A program made the position numbers and the translations under genes. The notes under the pieces were generated by a model, which was not told the origin of the DNA, did not search any database, and worked only from the letters and a program-made list of their open reading frames with translations. This document shows positions 612-60,857 of a stretch of 64,000 bases of DNA, piece by piece; position 1 is the first letter of the stretch, and each line of letters opens with the position of its first letter. The DNA is taken from the NCBI GenBank assembly GCA_001466705.2, contig LATX02000193.1, positions 248,001 through 312,000 of the forward strand. The letters run 5' to 3'. The DNA comes from Moniliophthora roreri. Its lineage: Eukaryota; Basidiomycota; Agaricomycetes; Agaricales; Marasmiaceae.

Positions 612-2310
612 CTAATCACGACCACGGAAACCACCAGAGAACCACGCATTATCGGAAAAGTACCCGGTCACTCTATTTGGCTCGAGCTGCAAATGCGCGC
701 TTGCCCATGGGTTTCGTCGGGGACCGAGTCCAGGTATTAGTTTGGCACCAGCAAGCCGAAGGAGTGTGGCTTCACCAACAGCTTCATCGCGAGTGTATGA
801 CTAGAAGCAACGCGGTGAGTACCTCAGCAGCGAAGACCTGGGGGCAGACGTACAGTAAACACAGATGGGACCCCCTCATCTACTAAAAGCTCCATTGTAT
901 CTTGCCACTGCTCATGAGACTCAATAGAACCGTTGTTGAACGCAATCGCTAGGTCGGGTTTGGTATACTTGCGACCTGCCTTTTCGACGTATTCATGATA
1001 GCGGCTACATAGAGGTAAGTACGGAGGCGTAAGACCATCGAGAGGCGAACTCACTGCGCTTGTACCTCCACTGACATAACACGATGCTTCTCTGTACAAT
1101 CTGGGCACGATTCCATCGTCAGCGAAGTCCCAGGTCGGGGATTTTCTACTGTGTTCAGTTTGGGTCCACAGAGGAGAACATGTAGCGTCTTCAAAGCGGG
1201 CAGGCGATGGATGATTTCTTCGAACATTTGGGCGAAAAGGGTTTCGTTGCGTGCGGCACCAAGAACCTACAGGGTGATTAGAAATACACCTAAGAATAGA
1301 CATTGACTCACATGCACCGTCATCGACGTCTTCTTCGTCCAGCTATCATCTGCACCATTGAATATTTGCAGAACATAGAGAGTAGTCATTGGCATTGACA
1401 ACGCATCCGAAGCTGACCTCAGGCAGCCTTGCAGAGCAATGGTATTCGCTCCATCCATACCATACTCATCCAAGAAATCCTTCCCAAACTCCTTGAGCCA
1501 GTTTTTTGGAGGAAGTCTTAACGGTTTCCACTCTGGCTTGGACCTTTTGGGTAGCCAACCTAGCGAACGACCGTCTTCCGACATGGTTTGATGGAAGTCA
1601 ATGTCGACGCGGATTTCTTGATTGAGCTTGCATTGCGTCTTCCCTTCGTAAGCGGTACCTTCGAAGGGCTCTTTGGCATGTAGAGGGTAAACGGCATCCC
1701 AGTGCTCTTGGCAGCAGTAGAAAGTGAGACCGCAGTCGGGGCATTCTTTGAGCTCGCGTCGGGGAGAGGTTGTGGATTCCATGCGAATGACACGGTCTGT
1801 TCGAGCACAGGCCATACAGCTCCTCTGCCAACCGACGATGTTTTGCTCAATGTTGGTCAAAGGGCGCTTGAGAGCACGCTTCAAAAAATGCCTTTCGGTC
1901 CTCCCAAATCTCCTGCATAACCGGTTCACAAGTTCCATATCGGTGTGACAGCGATCGTCTACACTAGAAAGCAGAGTCCATCGTGTCCTCGCGTCTTTCT
2001 CAAGAGACGCGTAAGCTTTGCAGAGACCTCTGTGATTTTTCCAGTCTGCCTACGCGTGTAACATGAGACAAGAACTCGAGGAGAAAGACCTCCATACCTT
2101 CTGACATTCTTCCGAGCAAGAGTTAGAATACGCGAAACCCGGGACAGCAGAAATTTACGCACCTTCCCCGCAGTATCCTACGCTCTTGCACCTAGAACAT
2201 TTAGAGATCTTGACGTCTTCTTCGATATCATTCTTATAGCAATAATGGCATGCCTGCAAGAAATTGGCAGTCAGGGGTGGCAAAGTAGTCGAATTCCTCT
2301 TCATAGGCAT
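612..2310 (-). CDS. MYND zinc-finger protein with MSS51-like C-terminal region, copy 1
   Basis: Inferred exons, in transcript order: 2163-2310, 1312-2045, 1055-1266, 854-1004, 612-800. Phases agree throughout and give about 477 aa. The N-terminus carries a MYND finger: CHYCYKND, CSRCKSVGYCGE, then DWKNHRGLC formed across intron 1. A second Cys cluster follows (CMACARTDR ... CPDCGLTFYCC). The C-terminal part (VLGAARNET, KPDLAIAFNNG, SYTRDEAV, RNPWAS, GYFSDNAWFSGGFRGR) matches the MSS51-like C-terminal region common in Agaricomycete MYND proteins. MYND fingers usually bind proline-rich partners; the actual role here is unknown. The start is the ATG aligning with MKRxxxxLPPL of the paralogue at 4591; another in-frame ATG lies at 2310. 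The open frame continues upstream to a GTG but holds no further ATG. It is transcribed away from CNOT11. Confidence 0.85.
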
Positions 2311-4590: not shown

Positions 4591-6360
4591 ATGAAGAGAG
4601 CGACCCATCTCCCTCCTCTGTCCGCCAGATTCTTGCGGGCGTGTCATTATTGCTATAGGAGTGATCTCGAACTCTTGATATGTTCTGGTTGCAAGAGCGT
4701 GGGGTACTGCGGCAAAGGTGTGTCACTGAATCACCTTTGTTTGTCTATCACTCTAATTCTCGCGTCTTTGGAGGTTGCCAAAGAGTATGAACCATTATGC
4801 AATTTACTCATAGTCTCACATCTCACTCGCAGGCGGACTCGGGAGAACACAAAGCTCTCTGTGAGGCCTATGTGGCTCTTGAGGCAGACGCAGAGACACG
4901 AAAGCTTTTACTCCAGTGCGTCGATGATCGTTCTGAATACGACATAGACTTCGTGAGCCGGTTGTGTCGAAAGATCAGAAGAGTCGAAGGAGACTTCTTG
5001 TCGCGTAGACTTCAGCGTCCGCTGACAGACGAGGAGCAAGACGTTGTGGACTGGCAAAGGAGTTGTGTGGCTTGCGGTCGAACAGATCGCATCATTCGCA
5101 TGGAACTCATCTCCGGAGGGCGCGAGCTCGAAGGATGTCCAGGTTGCGGGCTTACTTTCTTTTGTTGCGAGAAGCACTGGGGTGTGGCCTATCGTTTTCA
5201 TAAAAAACATTTTCATGGTGAAGACTATGAGGGCAGATCGCAGTGCAGACTGAATCAAGCAGTATTCATCGACATCAAGTTCCTTGAAACTGTTTGGGCC
5301 AAAGGGGAACATTCGACAAAACAATGGCTACCAAAGCGGTCCAAGTATATCTGGCTCCCGTTAAAGACTTCGAAAGCTCCTGGCTGGCCCAACCTTTACG
5401 TTGAGGAGTTCTTTATAGATTTCATCCACGATTACGGTTTACAACTCTCGGATCCAAGAGTCCTGGCTCCGTGTCTGAGGTCAGCGGCCGACGGCCTGTC
5501 GATACCGATGACCGTTCTGTATGCTCTGCAGGCATTCTACGGCTCAGAAGGTAGTTGGACGAGAAAGACGAAATTGAACATACATGTACGTGCAACTTCG
5601 AATAAGACGGAATTCGCTGCTGATACGTAGCAGGTTTTAGGTGCTGGACACAACATTACCAAATTTGTTCACATGTTCGAGGAAATCGTTCATCGCCTGC
5701 CTCAGCTGAAGACATTATGCGTTCTGCTGTGTGGAACCACACTTGAAACTGGCATACCGGTCGATGCGGTGCTATGCCCGTATGTTCACTATCCTTCGAT
5801 CAACGGTCTACATCTAAACCCGATATGCAGTACTTGCTCCTCGAAGGAATGTAATATGTCGGTCGAGATCCGGGCAGGGTGAGCACCTAGTCCATTTGGA
5901 GGGATTTCTGCTTGATTATTTACAGTCTCTACCATGATTATGCTGGCGAACAAGAGCACCGATACACGAAGCCTGACATGGTGATTGCCTTCAACAATGG
6001 TCAGGATGAGTGGCGAGAGGCATTAGAGTTTTTAATCGATGAAGAGATTGCTTCTGTTATCACTGTACGTTCTCTTCGTTTCAGTTGATTTTGCGCCCCA
6101 GCTTAGTGATATGACTCTAGTCTTACAGTCGTGATGAGGCCCTGGCTGCAACTATACAGCTACACCTCGCTGGCGCTAATCTTATTCCAGAACTTGCTGC
6201 TCATCTGGAATCTGGACTCGGTCCATGTCGAAACCCATGGGCAAGGACGTTACTCCAGCCGGAGCCCAATAACGTGGCCTGCTATATCTCTGATAACGCA
6301 TGGTTCGCTGGTGGGTTTCGTGGTCGTGTCCGAGTTGTTGGTCGACCAGACACGTTGTAG
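4591..6360 (+). CDS. MYND zinc-finger protein with MSS51-like C-terminal region, copy 2
   Basis: Inferred exons: 4591-4719, 4833-5585, 5634-5878, 5926-6064, 6121-6360; phases agree and give about 501 aa. The MYND finger is CHYCYRSD ... CSGCKSVGYCGKG ... GEHKALC, followed by CVACGRTDR and CPGCGLTFFCC. The C-terminal region shares with copy 1 VLGAGHNIT, YTKPDMVIAFNNG, SYSRDEAL, RNPWAR and SDNAWFAGGFRGR. Intron positions correspond to copy 1, so the two arose by DNA duplication. Divergence is substantial and mostly conservative, suggesting both stayed under selection. Copy 2 continues a few residues past GGFRGR (VRVVGRPDTL). No experimental function can be assigned; an MSS51-type role in mitochondrial translation should not be assumed. 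Confidence 0.87.
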
Positions 6361-23334: not shown

Positions 23335-26300
23335 ATGGGTCCCAATTACAAGAAGTGGTTCAAGAATTTCAAGGTGTCGTTCAAGAGACGTGGTAAGGTT
23401 GTCGCCATTCAGCCTCAGATACCTCCACCCAACGTGTATGTTTGTAATCACTTGTATTATTGAAAATTTACATTTTTCTACCAGATTGCCAGCCACTCCA
23501 ATGTCTACCCCTCTGACTGCTGCCCAGACTGAGACCACTGAGCTGTAACTTACCATATAATTTTATTATGACTAGGAGGCTGAGCATATCTCCAGATCTT
23601 CTGCCCTACCAATCAATTCCTCAAGTACACCAGTTAATGCCATTGAGGGCAAGGCCTCAGTTGTTGATTGCAGAGAGCCTCCACCTGATGTGTATGCTTT
23701 AGTCACTTGTATTGTTGCTGAAAGCTGATTTTTCTATCAGATTACCAGCTGCACCAACATCTACTCCTTTGATTGGTACTCTGTCTTCTACCCAGACAGA
23801 AACTACTGAACTGTGACTTGTTATTTGATTCTTTTGTGAGTAAGAGCTTGAGTATATTTCCAGATCTTCTGCTCTACCAATAGATTCCCCAAGTACCCCA
23901 GTTGGTGCTGTTGAGGGCAGAGTCTCTGCTGTGCTTTGCAATAGGCTCCAATCCTATGTGTATGTTCTTAGTCACTTGTATTATTGTTATCACAAACTTA
24001 TGTTGTTTTATTAGATCACAAGCTAGAAGGTCAACTTCTATGATTAGACACCAGTTCAATGGCCCAACAATGTTTGCAAATGCCTCAAGATTTATAATTG
24101 AAGGTGGCATCTTCAACAATATAGATGCAGGTGGCTTTAGTACAGGTGAGTTGAGCACATACTATATTAGCTTTAGAAAGTTCATATACTTACAATGAGA
24201 GTTAGTCACAATTATAGATGCAGCAGGCCGAAACATTCCCTTTCCTGCTGGAATACCAGCATGCCAAGAAGTATGTGACAATTCAATACTATATTTTGTA
24301 TTCATAAATTGCTCTAGTCCATTGAAAGTTATCTGAAGTGGCAATTCCACCACCAACAGGACAAAATCAGTGAAATGTTACTTGAATTTATAACTCAGGG
24401 TCAGTACAGCCTGTCTATTGATGAAGGAAGACAGGTTGTTATCCTTGGAAGGGGAGAAGAGAATTGGTCAAGAGTAGTATCTGGGACAACAATTGTAATG
24501 AGTGCTATTCTATGGCAGGAGAAGCAGAGTGACTACTCTGCAGGCTATAAATGTCCCATTTGCAAAACCTGGAACAGTAATATGGAGGAGGGACTAAATG
24601 TGGCTAAAGATTGGTAGGTTTTGGTAATTATAATTTTTCTATGCTAATATTGTTGCAGTTGCAACCCAAAATGTCCTGGGAGGTTTCAAGCAATTGAAGA
24701 GGGAGATTCTGGAGATCAGCAAAACAAGGATATGAATATGGATATCTTAAGAAATATTCATATAATGCAGGTAAGACAATTGTAGTATCTATGTATTTCA
24801 TATTGATTAGTTTGCTTCACTATCAGGGAGTGAGGGTACTCTTATTGTTCTGTAATAGAGTCCAACTAACTGTCCTCAACTTAATTCTTTATCTGGATTT
24901 AATTTAGAACTCTCAGCCAGTGGGTGTCTCTATAATATGTAATAACAAAGCACTAATGCCTTTTCTGTGTTTTGTTAGACAGTGTGTATTACTGTGATAT
25001 ATCCTTATAAAGTTCTACTAATTGTCTTGCCTTTAATCAGGACTCTCAGCCAGTATGTGTTTCTGCAGCATATTCTAATCAAGCCTTAATAATTGCCTTG
25101 TCTTTAATTAGAACTCTGAGCAAGTATGTGTTTATATAGTATGCTCTGGTAATGCTCTACTGACCAACTTGCACTTGATTAGGACCCTCAATCAGTGTGT
25201 ATCACTAGAGCATGCTCTAATAAAGCCCTACTAATTGTATTGTCATTAACTAGAGCTCTCAGCCAGTACGTGTGTATATAGTATGCTTTTATAAAGCTCT
25301 ACTAACTGTCTTGCCTTTGACTAGAACTCTGAGCAGGTATGTGATTCTATAATATACTCTGATTATATTTTACTGATTGCTCTGTACTTAATCAGGATGA
25401 TCAGCCAGTATGTGTTTATATGCTGTGTTTTGATAAAGGTTTGATAATTGCCTTGTCTTTGATTAGAACCTTGAGCAAGTATGTGTTCATATAATATATT
25501 CTGGTAAAGCTTCACTGACTGTCCCACACTTGATTAGAATCCTCAGGAAGTGTGTCTATGTGATATATTCTATTAATGTTTTACTGACTATTCTACACTT
25601 GATTAGCATCCTCAGCAAGTGTGTCTTTTAATAATATGCCATTATAAAGTACTAATAGCTTGTTTGCACTTTATATTCATTTTCAGCCAGTAAGTGTTCT
25701 TATAGTATGAGAGAATAGAGTACTTCTAATTTTCCTATGCCTCAATGTGACACTTAGTTTGTAGGTGTTCCTATAATATTCAATAATGAAGCACTACTGA
25801 TTGTTTTGCTAACCTTTAGCGAGTAAGTGTTCTTACAATTTGCAACTAAAAGTAGTACTAACCTTTCCATTCTTGATTCTAACTATTAGTGGGTATGTAT
25901 TTCTGCATATTGTGACTATAAAGCTTGCCAACTCTCCTGCACTTGATTCTGACTCTTAGGAAGTGAGTATTTCCACAAAACATAGCCTTAGAGCTCTACT
26001 AACTGGCATGTAATTGATTCTGGCTCAGAATGTGTGTTTTTAAGCTAAGTACAACAAAAAACTCCTACTAACCATCTTGCATATGATTCTAACTCTCAGG
26101 CTGTATGTATTTCCATATAATTTCCACTAATTGTCCTGACTTTAAATCTGTTTTTAGCTTGTGGGTGTTTCTATCAAGTGCAACAATAGAGCTTTGCTAA
26201 CTATACTACATTTTATTCTGAATATCAGCTTGTATGTGTTTCTACAGTATACTCTAATAAAGCTCTGCTAATTGTTTTGATCTTATAGGAAGTGTGTATT

Positions 26301-28972
26301 TCTAAATATGCTCTATCAATGCCTACTAATTATAGCTTTCATTTGGAATCTTAGCAAGTGCGTGTACTTATAGTGTGCTGTGATAACATTATGTTGGCTA
26401 ACCTGTACTTGATTCTGTCTTTTAGCTTGTGTGTAATTCCTACACAGTATGCATTGTTGTAAAACACTACTGACTCTTTTGTGCTTTATTTTTACTTTCA
26501 GAGAGTATGTGTTTTTATAAAACTGTAACAGGAAGGCACTGATGACTTACATTTAATTTGCATTTTTAGCTTGTATGTGTCTTTGAAATGTGGAATTATA
26601 AAATACTAACTGTCTTATACTACTTTCATTTCTAGTTTGTGAGTACTTCTATAATATTTACTGAAAAACTATTACTAACCCTCCTATGCTTGATTCTAAC
26701 TTTTAGCTTGTATGTACTTCTATAAAGTTCAATAATAAGACTGCTAACTTTTCTGCACTTTATGTTTACTTTCAGCAAGTATGTGTTTCTATTAAAGCAC
26801 AATAATAAAGGCTTACTAACTATTCTGCACTTGATTCCAACTTTTAGCAAGTGCATACTTTGACAAAGTTTGACAATGAATTCTTACTGACTGCTCTGCA
26901 TTTGATTCTGATTTTTAGGAAGTATGTGTTTCTATAAAACATAAAAATCAGCTCTTTACTAACTGTCTGATACTTGATTATAACATTTAGCAAGTATGTG
27001 TTCTCATAATAGATAATAATCAAGTGCCTCTGACTTATGCTGCACTTAATTCTGACTCTCAGCCAGTATGTGTTACTATAATATGAAATAATTAACCACT
27101 ACTAACTGCTTTATATTTTTAGCGAGTATGTCTTCTTTTATAATATTCTACTAATTGTCTTACAATTAATTCTAACTCTTAGGAGGTGTGTGTGCACAAA
27201 GTATAATAATGAAGCACTACTAATTGCTTGGTGCTTAAATCCAATTTTTAGGAAGTAAGTATTTCTACACTATGCAACAGTAACATACTACTGATTATTA
27301 TGAACTTTATTCTGACTCTTAGCTTGTGTGTATTGCTACAGTATATGATGAAAAAGCACTACTAATACTTTTATGCTTTACTCTAATTTCTAGCGAGTAT
27401 GTGTTTCAATCTATATAATAGTGAAGTACTGCTAACTTTTCTGCATCTAATTTCAACTCTTAGGAGGTGTGTTTCTACAAAGTATGACTATAAACCTCTA
27501 CTGACTGTGCTGCACCTTATTCTAACTCTTAGCTTGTATGTAGTTCTATAATATCCAGCTCTAAGTATGACTGACTTCCCTATGCTTTATTCTCACTTTT
27601 AGATTGTAAGTGTTTATACAGTATGCAATAATAAAAGTCTACTAACTATTTTCTACTTGATTTTAACTCTTAGGCTGTATGTGTTTCTACACAGTATAAT
27701 AATCAAGTGCCACTAATTAGGCTACATATAATTCTAACTTATAGCGGGTGTGTATTTCTATAATATTACTAATTCAGTACTACTGACTGTTCTACACTCA
27801 ATTCTGAATTCTAGCCAGTTTGTGTTTCTACCATATGGTACTATTAAACCTACTAACTTTTCTGTGCTTGATTCTGATTCTTAGGAAGTATGTATTCTTA
27901 TAAAATATGTTAATAAAGCACTACTAACCATTTTGCATTTTATTCTAATTTTCAGAGAGTGTGTATTCCTACAATCTACAAGTATAAAGTATTACTAACA
28001 ATATTATGCCTGATTTTAATTTACAGGAAGTATGTGTTTTTATAATGTGCAATTGCAAATTACTGCTAACTATTTCACATTTGGTTCTAATTATTAGCTT
28101 GTATGTGTTCTTACAACATATGATTGTAAAGCACTACTAACTTTTCTGTGCTTTACTTCAACTCTTAGCAAGTATGTGCTTCTACAATATGCAATAATAA
28201 TGCACTTCTGATTTTCCTATACTTGATGCTAACTTTCAGCGAGTATGTCTTTCTATAATATGCAATTTTGAAATTCTACTGATTCTCCTGCACCTGATTC
28301 TGACTTTTAGTTTGTATGTATTTCTAAAATTAATAATCAAGTGCTACTAATTTCTTTTACTGAAATTTATTTCTCAGAAGGTCTGTGCCTTTATACTATT
28401 TACTAATAAAGCATTACTAACTTTTCTGTCTATATTCTGTTTTACAGCGAGTGAGTAGTTCTACAATATACTTATGGTAACATATTACTAACTTTTCTAC
28501 TTGTGATTCAACCTCTTAGCGGGTGTGTAATTCCACAAAATATAATAATAATGCCTTACTAACTTTGTTGCACTTGCTTCTGACTCTTAGTGGGTATGTG
28601 CTTTCATACTATATATATAATGGTCTGCTAACTGCTCTGCACTTGATTCTGACTCTTAGGGTGTGAGTATTTTAACAAAATATAAAAGCAAAGCTCTACT
28701 TACTGTTTTTAAATTGATCTTTAACTCTTAGCTTGTGTGTATTCATATATTATACTCTGATAAAGTCATACTGACTGCCTGATATTTGATTCTAACTCTT
28801 AGTGAGTAAGTATTCTTACAATGTGCAGTTATGAGGCACTATTGATTTTTCTATATTTGATTTTGTCTCTCAGTCAGTATGTGTTTTTTACAAAGTGTTC
28901 TAGTGAAGTACTACTGACTACTATATATTTTGACTCTGGCTCTTGGTATAGAGCAAGGCAGAAGTTGGATAA
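23335..28972 (+). CDS. Fungal ubiquitin-like-domain protein with a 59-micro-exon 3' array
   Basis: Nine ordinary exons: 23335-23435, 23485-23544, 23596-23691, 23741-23812, 23864-23959, 24015-24145, 24218-24270, 24318-24613, 24659-24770. Their phases agree perfectly and give 339 codons. The protein starts MGPNYKKWFKNFKVSFKRRG, has a Pro/Ser/Thr linker encoded by a duplicated exon pair, then FANASRFIIEGGIFNNIDAG, a motif common in Agaricomycete proteins. Next comes a fungal ubiquitin-like fold (GRNIPFPAGIPACQESIESY, VVILGRGEENWSRVVSGTTI) and Cys pairs CPICKTWN and CCNPKCPGRFQAIEE. Exon 9 ends in phase 0. From 24771 the gene is a run of 60 introns and 59 micro-exons (see the array entry). After the array, the first AG past the branch point gives a short last exon ending in TAA at 28970-28972; a later AG (28961) would keep a 22-codon frame open to a GT at 29028. 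The function is unknown. Exons 1-9 are well supported; translation of the array is inferred. Confidence 0.72.
23434..23959 (+). repeat. Tandemly duplicated exon-intron pair
   Basis: Exons 2-3 (LPATPMSTPLTAAQTETTEL; SSALPINSSSTPVNAIEGK) and exons 4-5 (LPAAPTSTPL...STQTETTEL; SSALPIDSPSTPVGAVEGR) are homologous, as are the introns between them. All junctions are phase 2, so duplication was frame-neutral. Confidence 0.85.
24771..28961 (+). repeat. Array of 60 tandem introns separated by 59 micro-exons of 3 or 12 nt
   Basis: Each unit runs from a 5' splice site (mostly GTATGT or GTGTGT, also GTAAGT, GTGAGT) through a branch point CTAAC/CTGAC/CTAAT to TAG or CAG, then 3 nt (or 12 nt), then the next GT. 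Most neighbouring donor sites are 69-72 nt apart, typically 71. Introns are about 55-78 nt, the normal size for this genome. Units 2 and 4-12 have 12-nt exons such as GACTCTCAGCCA; units 1, 3 and 13-59 have single codons, for example CCA 25687, TTT 25757, CGA 25820, TGG 25890, CTT 26158, AAG 28378. The upstream exon ends in phase 0, so each 3-nt exon would be one codon. Unit 58 (28803) reads TGA. Flanking bases vary widely between units while splice signals persist. Confidence 0.85.
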
Positions 28973-29029
28973 GATTCTCACTATCTGTTGGAAGCCTTTC
29001 AGTATCAAAGAAGCTGCACTCTATAAGGT

Positions 29030-39430: not shown

Positions 39431-41458
39431 TCAAGGTTCAATTGGCCAAAGCGCTGAGTATTGTGCAAGTGTGGCCTTGTGTTTGTCAAGAGGGCCAGGT
39501 TTATGGCAGGTTGAGGGATTGGAGTAGAAGTCGTCAAGTGCTTTGCCCAGGTCTAAATCCTTGGCCAAAACCCATTGGATTTCTTTGTCCATACCTTCAT
39601 AGCCAGCCCACTTCACAAGGTACTGTAACTGACACTTACACTGCTGATCCAACTTTGAGTCTAAGATCTCGGATATCTCATAATGAGGTTCACCTTTGTT
39701 ATTGATCTTGACCAGAGGTGGTGGGGGTTCAGTGCGGTTAGGTATTTCGGAAGGGTGGAAGAGTTTGAGTTGGGATACATGGAAAATGGGGTGTATACCA
39801 GAGAGGTAGTCAGAAAGTCAGATGGTGAAGGCATTAGAGCTTGGTTGAGCAATGATTGTATATGGACCTAAATACTTCTCTGAAAGCTTCTTTGTCAGCC
39901 AAGTCCTCTTAATGTGCTTGGCTAGGATGTAGACTTGTTGGCCAACTTGGAAGTTGGATGCAGGTTTTCATCAGTTATCAGCCATGGTTTTGTAAGCTTC
40001 CTGGGCAGCCTTGATCTCGTCGCGTAAGAACTGGTGTACATTGTTGAGGTTGCTGACATAGTTGCAAGCTTTCTGAGATGCGAGATGGTATTCGAGGTGT
40101 ACTGTGATATTCGGGTGGTATCTCTTATTGGTGAAGAAAGGAGAGACACCTGTGGAAGCGTTAGGAGCATTGTTGTAAGCGAACTCTGCAAGGGGTAACA
40201 AGGTATCCCAGTTGACCTGCTGGTAAGTGCAGTACATCTGAAGATACTGTTCCAATGTCTGATTTGCTCATTCAGTCTGTCCATTGGCTTTGAGGTGGTA
40301 ACTGGAGGTGAAGTGCAATGACATGTTCAGGGTTTGTCTGAGGCTTTGGCTGAAAGACGAAATGAATTTGGATCCGTGGTTGGAGGTAACATGGTTCAGA
40401 ATGCCATGCTTAGAGAAAATGTAGATATAACAAAAAGTTGTGCGAGAGTTTTGGAGAGAAATGAAGATGGCTTGTTTGGATGCACAATCAATGATAACAA
40501 GGATAGATGTGTGACCATTGGAATCGGGGAGCTGTTCAATGAAGTTGAGAGAGATGGAATCCCAAGGTCAGGTTGGAATGGGTAAGGGCTTGAGCATTCC
40601 ATATGGCCAATGTCAACGAGACTTGTTCCTGCCACAGTCAGTGCATGACCTAACATAATCCTTAACAAAATCCCAGATCTGAGGCCAGGTGTATGAACGC
40701 CGAATGATTGCTAGCATATGGTTCTGGCCAAAGTGACTAGCAAGGATGTGGTCATGATGGTGCTTGCAGACTTGTAGGCAGAGGTCATTGGCCGAGGGCA
40801 CAAAGATCCTGTTGTCTAGTCAGAGGAGACCAGAGTCATCAATTGTCCATCGGCTGTGACCTTTCTGTGCATGTTGCATGCCCACAACAGCTTCAGAGTC
40901 GGAGGGAAGAGCAGTTCAGATGTCAGAATGGAGTTTTTCGATATCTATGAGAACACTTGCTCAGAGAATGGGTTCCTCTAGGTAGGTTGCCTGGAGTGAG
41001 GAGATGAGTTGTTCTTCAGTGAAGATCAGCTGAAGGGTCTGTGGATTGACTGACATGTAGCTGGTATCTCTCTCTTTAGAGTAGACATCCCAACGTCTAG
41101 TTAGGGCATCAGGCTTGGCACCCAACCTTCCCGGCCAAAAATGGATTACCATGTTGAAGGCGGATAAGTACTCTGACCATCAGACCTGTTGTTGGGTGAG
41201 AATCTTAGTAGTGGAGAAGTATTCCAAGTTCTTGTGGTCGGTGACTATGTCAATTGGGTTAGTAGCACCTTCGAGGTAGTGACACCATGACTTGAATGCT
41301 TCGAAGATGGCTAGCAATTCTTTGTCATGCATGTCGTAGTTGAGTTCGGCTCCAGTGAGAGTTTGAGAGAGAAAAGCAACTGGGTAGAGTTCGCTGTTGG
41401 AAAGGGTAATGGAAAGAATGGCGGCAATAGCATAGTTGGATGTGTTGGTTTCAATCAT
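39431..41458 (-). pseudogene. gypsy pol remnant: RNase H, integrase, chromodomain
   Basis: Read on the minus strand: RNase H (IETNTSNYAIAAILS, PVAFLSQTLTGAELNYD, HDKELLAIFEAF, IVTDHKNLEYF) at 41458-41180; then FWPGRLGAKPDALTRRWDVY; the integrase zinc-binding HHCC domain (HHHDHILASHFGQNHML ... CTDCGRNKS) at 40770-40613; the integrase core and C-terminal part (NAPNASTGVSPFFTNKRYHP) near 40130; and a chromodomain (YLVKWAGYEGMDKEIQWVLA) at 39600. Several frame changes and stops separate the blocks, so it is not functional. Domain order is that of chromoviral Ty3/gypsy elements. Confidence 0.85.
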
Positions 41459-41516
41459 GATTGGGCAGTTGGGTTCCCAGTGAGTCAGTACTGGTGCTCA
41501 GGTAAATGCTTCCTTA

Positions 41517-58532: not shown

Positions 58533-58795
58533 ATGAGTGAAATACGTTATAATGGCCAAAATACATTATAATCATTATGGCATATTTTAATGTAATATAA
58601 TTGTTGTTCCTTTATTTTAATGGATTAAAATGAACCAAAATGGTTATAATGTATTCTGGCTATTATAATGTATTTCGGCTATTATAATGTATTATGGCTA
58701 TTATAATGTATTCTGGCTATTATAATGTATTTTGGCCATTATAACGTATTTTGGCCATTATAATGTATTTTGGCCATTATAATGTATTTCGCCGT
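58533..58795. repeat. Palindromic TATAATG minisatellite / MITE-like repeat
   Basis: The left end GAAATACGTTATAATGGCC is the inverted complement of the right end. The right half is a tandem run of about eight units of ATTATAATGTATTYYGGCY, each 18-20 nt. It is non-coding. Confidence 0.7.
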
Positions 58796-59160: not shown

Positions 59161-60857
59161 TTATTCTTCGTCGTCTGGAGAATTGTAGACTTCCCACTGT
59201 GGCGTTGGTAAGTCGTCTTCTCCACCCTCGTCGTCGTCTTCTCCACCCTCGTCGTCGTCTTCTCCACCCTCGTCGTCGTCTTCTCCACCCTCGTCGTCGT
59301 CTTCTCCACCCTCGTCGTCGTCTTCTCCACCCTCGTCGTCGTCTTCTCCACCCTCGTCGTCGTCTTCTCCACTCTCGTCGTCGTCGCCTCCACCCAACTC
59401 ATCGTCTCCACCCTCAAAGTTTGGATTATCAGAAAAAGAAGGCGAGAGCCTACTCGTAGCACGACGCCTCGGGGGAACGTTCGAACCATTGCTGGCTCTT
59501 GGTCTCTCCTTGGGATTGTTGGCAGCATCATTTGACGTGGCTGCTTCTGACTCTTTCTGCTTCCTCTTCTCTGCTGCTCGCTCAAGTCTCTTCTGTTTCA
59601 TCTTGCTTACACCGCTTTCTTCGCGTGGATCCTCACGAGTTTTCGCTGCTTGTCCAAGACCAGCCTCCGATCCGTATACCCTTCTAAAATGAAGTGTTAG
59701 CGACCAAGTCGTGTAACCACTATGAGAAGACTTGCTTGTTGAAATTGCCAATGACGACGGTCCGCCAATCCCCTTCATCTTTCAAATCATTGATATCCTC
59801 GTCTTCTTCAATCTTGAAGCCGTCGATAACGTTATAATAGAAACTTCTCAAGTCGAAGTTGCCGTCTACTTGAATCCACCCTACTTCCTTGCACAAGGCG
59901 AGGTAAACCTAGACACAAATGAATAAGGGCTCATGTAGTAGATCGCCACGTACTAGTACTTCGCAATATGCGATAACCTGGGGGTTTGTTTTCAGCTCAA
60001 GGATGCGAGCGACGCACCAGCCTCGTGGGGCGGGGGGTTCGACCATCACTGACTTTTTTCCTGTGAAAAGGCACCTTGCCGTCTAAGACTGGACTTTAGT
60101 GTCCACCATGATGAGAATGAGTTTCGACTTAACTCTATAAACAAGATGGCCTTCATGAATGCCTGTTTCATAGTCGTCATCGGCAGCCATCGCATCTTTG
60201 CGCATCTCCAAGTTGTATAAAAAATTTGGCAGCTCATCGCTGCGAAGTTCGATGGTACGGTCTCGCATATCAGTCACCACCCTTGGTCAAGTTTCAGCAT
60301 ATGTAACAATCAAATAGAGGTATTACTTGCTTTTCAGAGTCATTGGCGGTCGACAAAAAAGCCATTGAGAAGTATTCAACAGGCGCAAATAATTTGCAAA
60401 TGTCTACGCTTGAGAGTCCTCGTACACTCTTGTCACTTGGCGGAAGTGGATTCGATAACAAGTCCACATAAGGGTTCGGCATTAACCAAGATGGAATCTC
60501 GTACGCCAGCCGGTTGATATCGCTAGAACGCACTGCTGACACCTCGGAATCCATCTACTTTATCATCAGATTCGCTTTGCATCCATATAGGGAAATACAC
60601 AGCTCACCTCTCTAAGGATTACATCGTACTCATGATAAGACCTTAGACGCTCGGCAAATTTGAAGAACGTGTCGATGACTGGGCAATACGCAATTAAACT
60701 CTTGTAGTTTGCAAGCATTCGATCTTCTTCCGGTTTGCTTCTGAAGGGCAATTAGACAATCTGAACGAGTCAAAAAAATGAACGTACAATTGCGTTGTTC
60801 CAATGTCCAAACCGTCGACGTCCGGCAAATGTTTCCTAAACCTTTTGCTTTTGACCA
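59161..60857 (-). CDS. DUF6698-like protein, 5' end lost at an assembly gap
   Basis: Read on the minus strand, the exons give LSKPEEDRMLANYKSLIAYC, then SSDINRLAYEIPSWLMPNPY and KSVRGLSSVDICKLFAPVEY, then ELRSDELPNFLYNLEM and RVKSKLILIMVDTK. These are followed by PPAPRGWCVARILELKTNPQ VIAYC, GNFDFRSFYYNVIDGF and NKRVYGSEAG. This order (Arg-Gly-Phe/Leu segment, LP-x-FLY, then IAY and FYYNVID) is that of the large Agaricomycete DUF6698 family, whose role is unknown and which often occurs near transposons. The C-terminus is Lys/Arg-rich, then acidic with a GGEDDDE repeat. The last intron (59684-59735) appears to use a GC donor (GCAAGT). Neighbouring introns are ordinary. The gene lacks a defined start. 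Confidence 0.6.
59219..59395 (-). repeat. In-frame 21-bp coding minisatellite (GGEDDDE repeats)
   Basis: About eight near-identical 21-nt units, differing by very few bases, encode repeated GGEDDDE in the acidic tail of the DUF6698-like protein. The unit length keeps the frame when copy number changes. Confidence 0.85.

Follow-up and report, generated by a model that had tools for sequence, protein, structure and literature searches.

The window analysed here, a stretch of 64,000 nucleotides from the basidiomycete Moniliophthora roreri, carries a gene whose 3' part is split into an array of very short exons (Table 1). The host-gene protein is 99% identical to WG66_007521 of M. roreri in a protein search and contains a ubiquitin-like domain, ULD_2 (PF22893; 27.6 bits, cut-off 24.5), followed by a CxxC/CxxxC motif that by eye resembles a zinc ribbon. 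The last exon of normal size ends in phase 0, as the first-pass annotation of this DNA had stated and as in the NCBI model P0001. That model includes the peptides of the 12-nt exons described below and stops where the run of exons of 3 nt only begins. Gene models at such array loci are wrong, and others seem, by eye, to translate the array introns.

Two protein searches returned M. roreri proteins alone, with no homologue beyond this species. In a Pfam scan of five family proteins, ULD_2 scored above the cut-off in two, and neither NACHT nor WD40 was listed for any of them; three tails, that of the window having been entered partly after the NCBI reading, gave matches below the cut-off only. 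A structure of the paralogue P0010 computed by AlphaFold2 with six sequences had a mean pLDDT of 38 and was unusable. Some paralogues (P0010, P0012-P0016) have an extra, helical-looking N-terminal stretch, and residues 125-205 of P0010 (contig 108) match MLKL_N below the cut-off (E 0.064). MLKL_N is a domain known from cell-death proteins. Upstream of the array, adjacent host-gene exons at 23500-23960 are near-repeats of one another by eye (ETTELSSALPI.S.STPV.A.EG.), an exon duplication.

Gene and array lie in a 30-kb block (23000-53000) of about 31-46% GC, flanked by DNA of 45-52% GC on the left and mostly 44-51% on the right. Within the block, broken open frames at 39431-41497 (-) resemble, by eye, a chromodomain and an RNase H as carried by a Ty3/gypsy-type retrotransposon. 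Near the left end of the window, two divergent, related-looking open frames, at 1267-1938 (-) and 4797-5630 (+), give weak matches to Mss51/MYND-type zinc fingers. An open frame at 59161-59778 (-) contains a 21-bp tandem repeat and codes for an acidic run of the GGEDDDE type, and a 19-bp repeat occupies 58644-58789.

Table 1. Features of the array gene, in window coordinates
Feature	Position	Strand	Basis
5' and middle exons; end with ULD_2 and the first half of the CxxC zinc-ribbon-like motif	23335..24613	+	WG66_007521, P0001
Last normal-size exon, ends ..ILRNIHIMQ, phase 0	24659..24770	+	paralogues in the M. roreri genome by tblastn
Array of 60 introns and 59 micro-exons	24771..28951	+	spliced parse; profile, pattern and spacing counts
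Early block with ten possible 12-nt units	24830..25618	+	parse; P0001 tail
45 consecutive single-codon micro-exons, units 13-57, spelling PFRWENALLEQLRLFLQQEQPREELRELIARPERELQRFKRRWGL	25687..28734	+	parse
TGA stop as micro-exon, unit 58, next to last	28803..28805	+	parse
Final micro-exon TCA, after the stop	28874..28876	+	parse
Post-array exon, probably 3' UTR in the window gene	28952..29027	+	frames by eye

Re-parsing the array returned the numbers of introns and micro-exons that had been counted before, with 49 of the 59 micro-exons readable as 3 nt only and ten possibly of 12 nt. The introns have a mean length of 66.6 nt (range 55-87 nt, n=60). The 12-nt candidates are units 2 and 4-12, which carry an extra pyrimidine-AG (TAG or CAG) 9 nt upstream of the usual acceptor, at a place where the later units have, by eye, TCT or something similar; in six of the ten, a CAG also stands 3 nt before the donor, and these exons can be read as 3 or as 12 nt, in frame both ways. 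Read as 12 nt, the ten encode NSQP, DSQP, NSEQ, DPQS, SSQP, NSEQ, DDQP, NLEQ, NPQE and HPQQ. The shift of acceptor in the early units turns one codon into four and shows that exon length can change by whole codons. Since the parser is biased to 3-nt exons, spacings were also counted without it: in the window array, YAG-N(k)-GTRNGT occurs 52 times with k=3 and 10 times with k=12, and at most once with any other k from 0 to 24. The prevalence of these two spacings bears out the earlier description of dense, in-frame micro-exons.

The pattern YAGNNNGTRNGT has 57 matches in the window, 52 of them inside the array, compared with a mean of 6.2 and a maximum of 12 in 100 dinucleotide shuffles. When 48 units were combined into a profile, the 64 kb yielded 58 matches at E up to 0.01, every one of them on the + strand between 24831 and 28942. 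Of the 58 units that can be read with a 3-nt exon, all have GT and AG and 57 have G at +5; the branch motif CTRAY occurs in 53, against a mean of 11.5 and a maximum of 20 when the interiors are shuffled. The remaining columns examined (+7 to +12 and -20 to -3) hold 0.3-1.4 bits. This array is the most diverged of all those parsed, its introns being about 63-67% identical among themselves, and the retention of the splice signals over such divergence, which had been pointed out from the sequence at the outset, favours use.

A blastn search of the M. roreri genome with 401 array bases gave 77 matches, on contigs 12, 21, 34, 78, 93, 105, 108, 111, 115 and 153, and a tblastn search with the ULD part gave 28, many of them adjoining the arrays. 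Fifteen array stretches were parsed, with 454 three-nucleotide exons in all; they represent 14 arrays, C111 and C111b being two halves of one array with an LTR retrotransposon between them. Twelve of the 15 begin at a donor that follows the conserved HIMQ/HIIQ codons at the end of the last normal exon of the family; a sequence pattern showed this for 11 and inspection by eye for C78. That exon was not found before C12, which starts at a contig end, nor before C115b, which lies 9 kb past the C115 gene. At C108:298 kb, 11 more single-codon exons, outside the 454, follow the same last normal exon, and there are additional short arrays at C78:809 kb, C105:458 kb, C111:165 kb and C153:146 kb. The number of micro-exons among the paralogues ranges from about 4 to 87. 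With one mismatch allowed, the junction pattern has 340 matches in 59.4 Mb, and the reversed pattern has none; the matches listed fall within known arrays, apart from a few at C117:265 kb and C111:171.6 kb. Two blastn searches with the intron family (294 and 276 matches) likewise led, among the matches listed, to known arrays and to a few matches at those same two places.

The parse had to permit GC donors, and a few units of L010 and L013 need one (a GC-AG intron) to give a 3-nt exon. Exons that do not parse as 3 nt occur in C34, C113, C108a, C111, C12 and C115a; these exons and an internal TAG in C115a indicate that some copies are decaying or misparsed. Where the donor is unusual the parser gave artefacts, which were rejected: one 12-nt exon in C153b, and exons of 44/45 nt in C108a and C111. 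The LTR retrotransposon splitting the C111 array (L018/L019) lies at about C111:158.5-162.8 kb, and a similar LTR sequence stands beside further array units at C111:165.3 kb. Lone N letters mark abrupt junctions at C111:164.96 kb (L019), C105:458.5 kb (L020/L021) and C34:142.7 kb (L025); these letters, two adjoining array units, suggest assembly joins.

When the micro-exons are joined, frame 0 has one stop in 450 codons (the 454 with the terminal stops of three arrays left out), against 14 of 427 and 35 of 427 in the other two frames (Fisher p 1e-8). The full set of 454 holds four stops where position-wise shuffles within each array predict 15.2, and four or fewer were reached in 0.02% of 5000 shuffles. 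Three of these stops occupy the final or penultimate position of their array (TGA in the window, TAA in C153b, TGA in C108a), the fourth being the TAG of C115a. The codons of C153b read TQAPQPLEAHQHPLAL..HVAQVHAQIHAQFTLFAAQFQQLFQHQ-stop, a protein-like string. By eye, a similar peptide continues in phase 0 after several arrays (VKHEAEHGQGSHSLS-stop in C93b, AKQNAEHGQCSQSLS-stop in C153a, DSSSED in C21 and C105), and the exon matching the post-array exon of the window reads in paralogues as a similar C-terminal peptide. The choice of codons in the parsed arrays is narrow: CTT accounts for 26 of 30 leucines and CAA for 53 of 59 glutamines, and alanine is written only GCA or GCT. The third base is C in only two of the 454, a rarity that is expected if each codon abuts a donor. 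Codon choice also looks array-specific; contig 115, for example, is rich in codons ending in G. Of 18 uncorrected tests for periodic residue order, 5 gave p<0.05, spread over four of the nine tails, which is suggestive only. Read from the DNA, the micro-exons are coding: joined, they are open in one frame only and their stops lie mostly at array ends. Together with the 14 further parsed stretches, the evidence from stop codons makes the case that the array is in use much stronger than it was on first inspection. The first-pass annotation had also raised the possibility that combinatorial alternative splicing draws many protein variants from this one locus. No observation requires the skipping of subsets, and three of four stops at array ends fit full, ordered inclusion; the diversity that is visible lies at the DNA level, from one gene copy or unit to another.

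In the younger arrays, comparison of the units indicates that the introns are near-identical within an array and between related loci, and that the codons between them are unrelated. Five letter-identical introns of C21, for instance, are followed by CAA, GAC, GTT, GTT and CAA. Pairs drawn from the 450 units, which are not independent of one another, were sorted by the number of mismatches in the 68 bases flanking the codon: the codon agreed in 43 of 55 pairs with no mismatch, 23 of 71 with one, 11 of 102 with two and 27 of 281 with three. At the same levels of mismatch, 21 control triplets, matched to the codon in this respect, agreed in 70-100% (median 98), 47-100% (median 91), 24-98% (median 83) and 27-96% (median 77) of pairs. 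Thus, the codon lies below every control triplet at one, two and three flanking mismatches; at none, the codon is better conserved than one of the control triplets. One intron triplet, located 37 nt ahead of the codon, also changes fast. Compared with unmatched controls, the matched ones give a smaller contrast (control agreement down to 24%) in the same direction. Similarly, colinear units that are reciprocal best matches share the codon in 18 of 19 cases when their introns are 100% identical, and in 2 of 11, 2 of 6 and 1 of 10 at identities of 97-99%, 94-97% and 90-94%, respectively. Between C21 and C111 there is one difference in 1658 bases before the array and ten in 1132 after it; the first five introns differ at 12 of 330 bases and their codons at 8 of 15 (p 1.4e-7).

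These numbers bear first on plain tandem duplication, according to which intron and codon were multiplied together in the manner of a minisatellite, the codons having then drifted apart through point mutations, with constraint relaxed or with selection acting in the ordinary way. The near-constant length of the unit fits this, as do the whole blocks, codons included, that have been duplicated in C12, C108b and C93b. Units with the same codon are also slightly more alike (pooled, by 3 to 6 points; 0 of 200 permutations), which, with the blocks duplicated whole, implies that whole cassettes are sometimes copied. At one flanking mismatch there is a mild excess of one-step codon differences, 31% against 22% in unrelated pairs. 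Yet the differing codons at that level differ at one, two and three bases in 15, 11 and 22 pairs, so that most changes are of two or three bases and mostly wholesale, and in the young arrays the codons are mostly unrelated despite introns that are 95-100% identical. Mere copying of intron plus codon would leave young units with common codons, and this is found only when the flanks are identical. Nor does intron similarity decay with distance; it is flat along all six arrays tested. Overall, neighbouring codons are identical more often than expected (59 cases against 42, p 0.0045), as might result from a 3-nt target-site duplication on intron insertion; block duplication gives this effect as well, and it is absent from C93a and C153b, the two most diverged long arrays. 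Distance-independent intron similarity, wholesale codon differences and the matched-triplet comparison all disfavour duplication as the only cause, and we consider it unlikely.

The introns also appear to have been exchanged between some loci. For C21 and C115, identity is 83% over the 620 nt upstream of the array and 88.6% for random pairs of their array introns; for C21 and C105 the upstream identity is 92%, that of the best intron matches 97.9%, and the 200 nt downstream are 100% identical. In C93b and C78, upstream region and introns are about equal (83 and 84%), and the order is reversed between C108a and C108b (84% upstream; introns 77%, best matches 83%). That the introns are more alike than the gene body between some of the loci suggests that part of the family has exchanged them. 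If such exchange were neutral, the codons would become uniform as fast as the introns; therefore, something keeps the codons different. Selection for diversity would be the simplest cause, and a process aimed at the codon itself a bolder one.

Identical introns between different codons, and similarity without any lag structure, would equally be expected had introns of one family been inserted, by an introner-like burst or reverse splicing in 3-nt steps, at each codon boundary of a pre-existing coding stretch, the codons then being the older part. Against this, the few-intron copies C153a and C78b have, by eye, short tails and not a long uninterrupted exon, and tblastn found no uninterrupted version of the C153b tail in the genome, an empty tblastn answer being a weak sign. 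Moreover, the confinement of the family to arrays, among the matches listed and apart from the few matches on contigs 117 and 111, disfavours a burst, as do those short tails. We know of no basis for intron insertion at exact 3-nt steps, and regard this origin, too, as improbable. That the array is a non-coding satellite within one long intron or a 3' UTR, its splice signals an accident of consensus, could be argued from the size of the exons, 3 nt being about the shortest length that spliceosomes are known to handle, but it is very improbable in view of the frame-specific lack of stops, the stops at array ends, the signals conserved in the most diverged array and the in-phase peptide after several arrays.

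The explanation that we consider fairly probable is that the 59 frame-neutral micro-exons at the 3' end of the ULD gene are spliced in order, as their signals predict, into a tail of at most 87 residues, and that their codons have been diversified as single-codon cassettes. Each short intron would be recognised as a unit (intron definition) and the introns removed one after another. Ordered splicing is to be expected from geometry alone, because a donor and an acceptor with only 3 nt between them can scarcely both be engaged at the same time; to this extent, the splicing ratchet that had been proposed for the locus may be retained. True recursive sites of zero length are not the rule in the arrays, where, over the 15 stretches, YAG is followed directly by GTRNGT 7 times and with 3 nt between them 402 times. 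Gene conversion and unequal exchange, acting within introns that are almost alike, would multiply, remove and rearrange codons with the frame always preserved and would also homogenise the array introns, selection for a changing tail keeping the codons different. In the younger arrays, the near-identity of introns around differing codons likely lets M. roreri keep changing the protein tail. In the weakest step of the scheme, the tail might form a recognition surface, as do the repeat domains of fungal non-self-recognition proteins; a role in recognition is suggested by this analogy. A further reading, which we advance tentatively and hold to be somewhat less probable than its opposite, is that of a hypervariable region written codon by codon, each codon being a recombination cassette: a generator, at the level of DNA, of recognition specificities with single-residue resolution.

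No array of this kind appears among the listed titles and abstract openings of the open-licence literature on single-codon exons, microexons (in basidiomycetes too), micro-exon genes, introners and concerted evolution of introns, and M. roreri is not named among the listed titles and abstract openings on microexons, short exons and introns. Nothing in these parts of that literature comes near an unbroken series of 45 to more than 80 one-codon exons. If the arrays are spliced, the spliceosome of a fungus is able to link 3-nt exons by the dozen, one after another, and ordered splicing by intron definition is open to direct test. If the codons are shuffled between introns, the latter would acquire a new evolutionary role, as homology arms for diversification at the level of the codon, and the arrays would offer a natural test system for the old question of whether introns speed protein innovation through recombination.

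Several known systems resemble these arrays in part. Schistosome micro-exon genes have runs of symmetric micro-exons; their exons are longer and far fewer per gene than in M. roreri, and we know of none in which copies of a single intron lie between the micro-exons. The M. roreri gene also has short, frame-neutral exons in series, only in its 3' part. In a minisatellite, all columns of the unit would be about equally homogenised, whereas here the codon is the least conserved triplet at one to three mismatches, though one intron triplet changes fast as well. Stwintrons and recursive splice sites likewise have adjacent introns that force an order of splicing. A stwintron, however, as described in PMC8469720, is an intron that interrupts a splice signal of another; in the M. 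roreri arrays a whole codon stands between complete introns, and zero-length exons are as rare as noted above. Introners and introner-like elements of fungi and algae form families of near-identical short spliceosomal introns and, as described in PMC9860276, insert into many genes genome-wide. The M. roreri family occurs, among the matches listed and apart from those few on contigs 117 and 111, in arrays only, with one intron per 3-nt exon, and a term search of the main text of that introner survey found no mention of Moniliophthora.

The closest parallels are drawn with the HNWD/HIC (high internal conservation) repeats of fungal non-self-recognition genes of the NLR type, such as het-d and het-e of Podospora anserina. 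In the passages of PMC1805685 that describe them, the WD40 units of this NACHT/WD family are near-identical within and between loci, exchange between loci and evolve in concert; repeat number is variable, and diversity is confined to a few codons, the units varying at four that are positively selected. Near-identical units within and between loci are found in the younger M. roreri arrays, the introns of the window array reaching only the lower identity given above. The combination of NACHT and WD40 was not encountered in the five family proteins scanned. The concentration of diversity in specific codons is common to both, as the comparison of C21 with C111 and the matched triplets indicate. 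The two differ in what is repeated: in HNWD the repeat is a WD40 unit, whereas in M. roreri it is almost all intron, its coding part being one variable codon.
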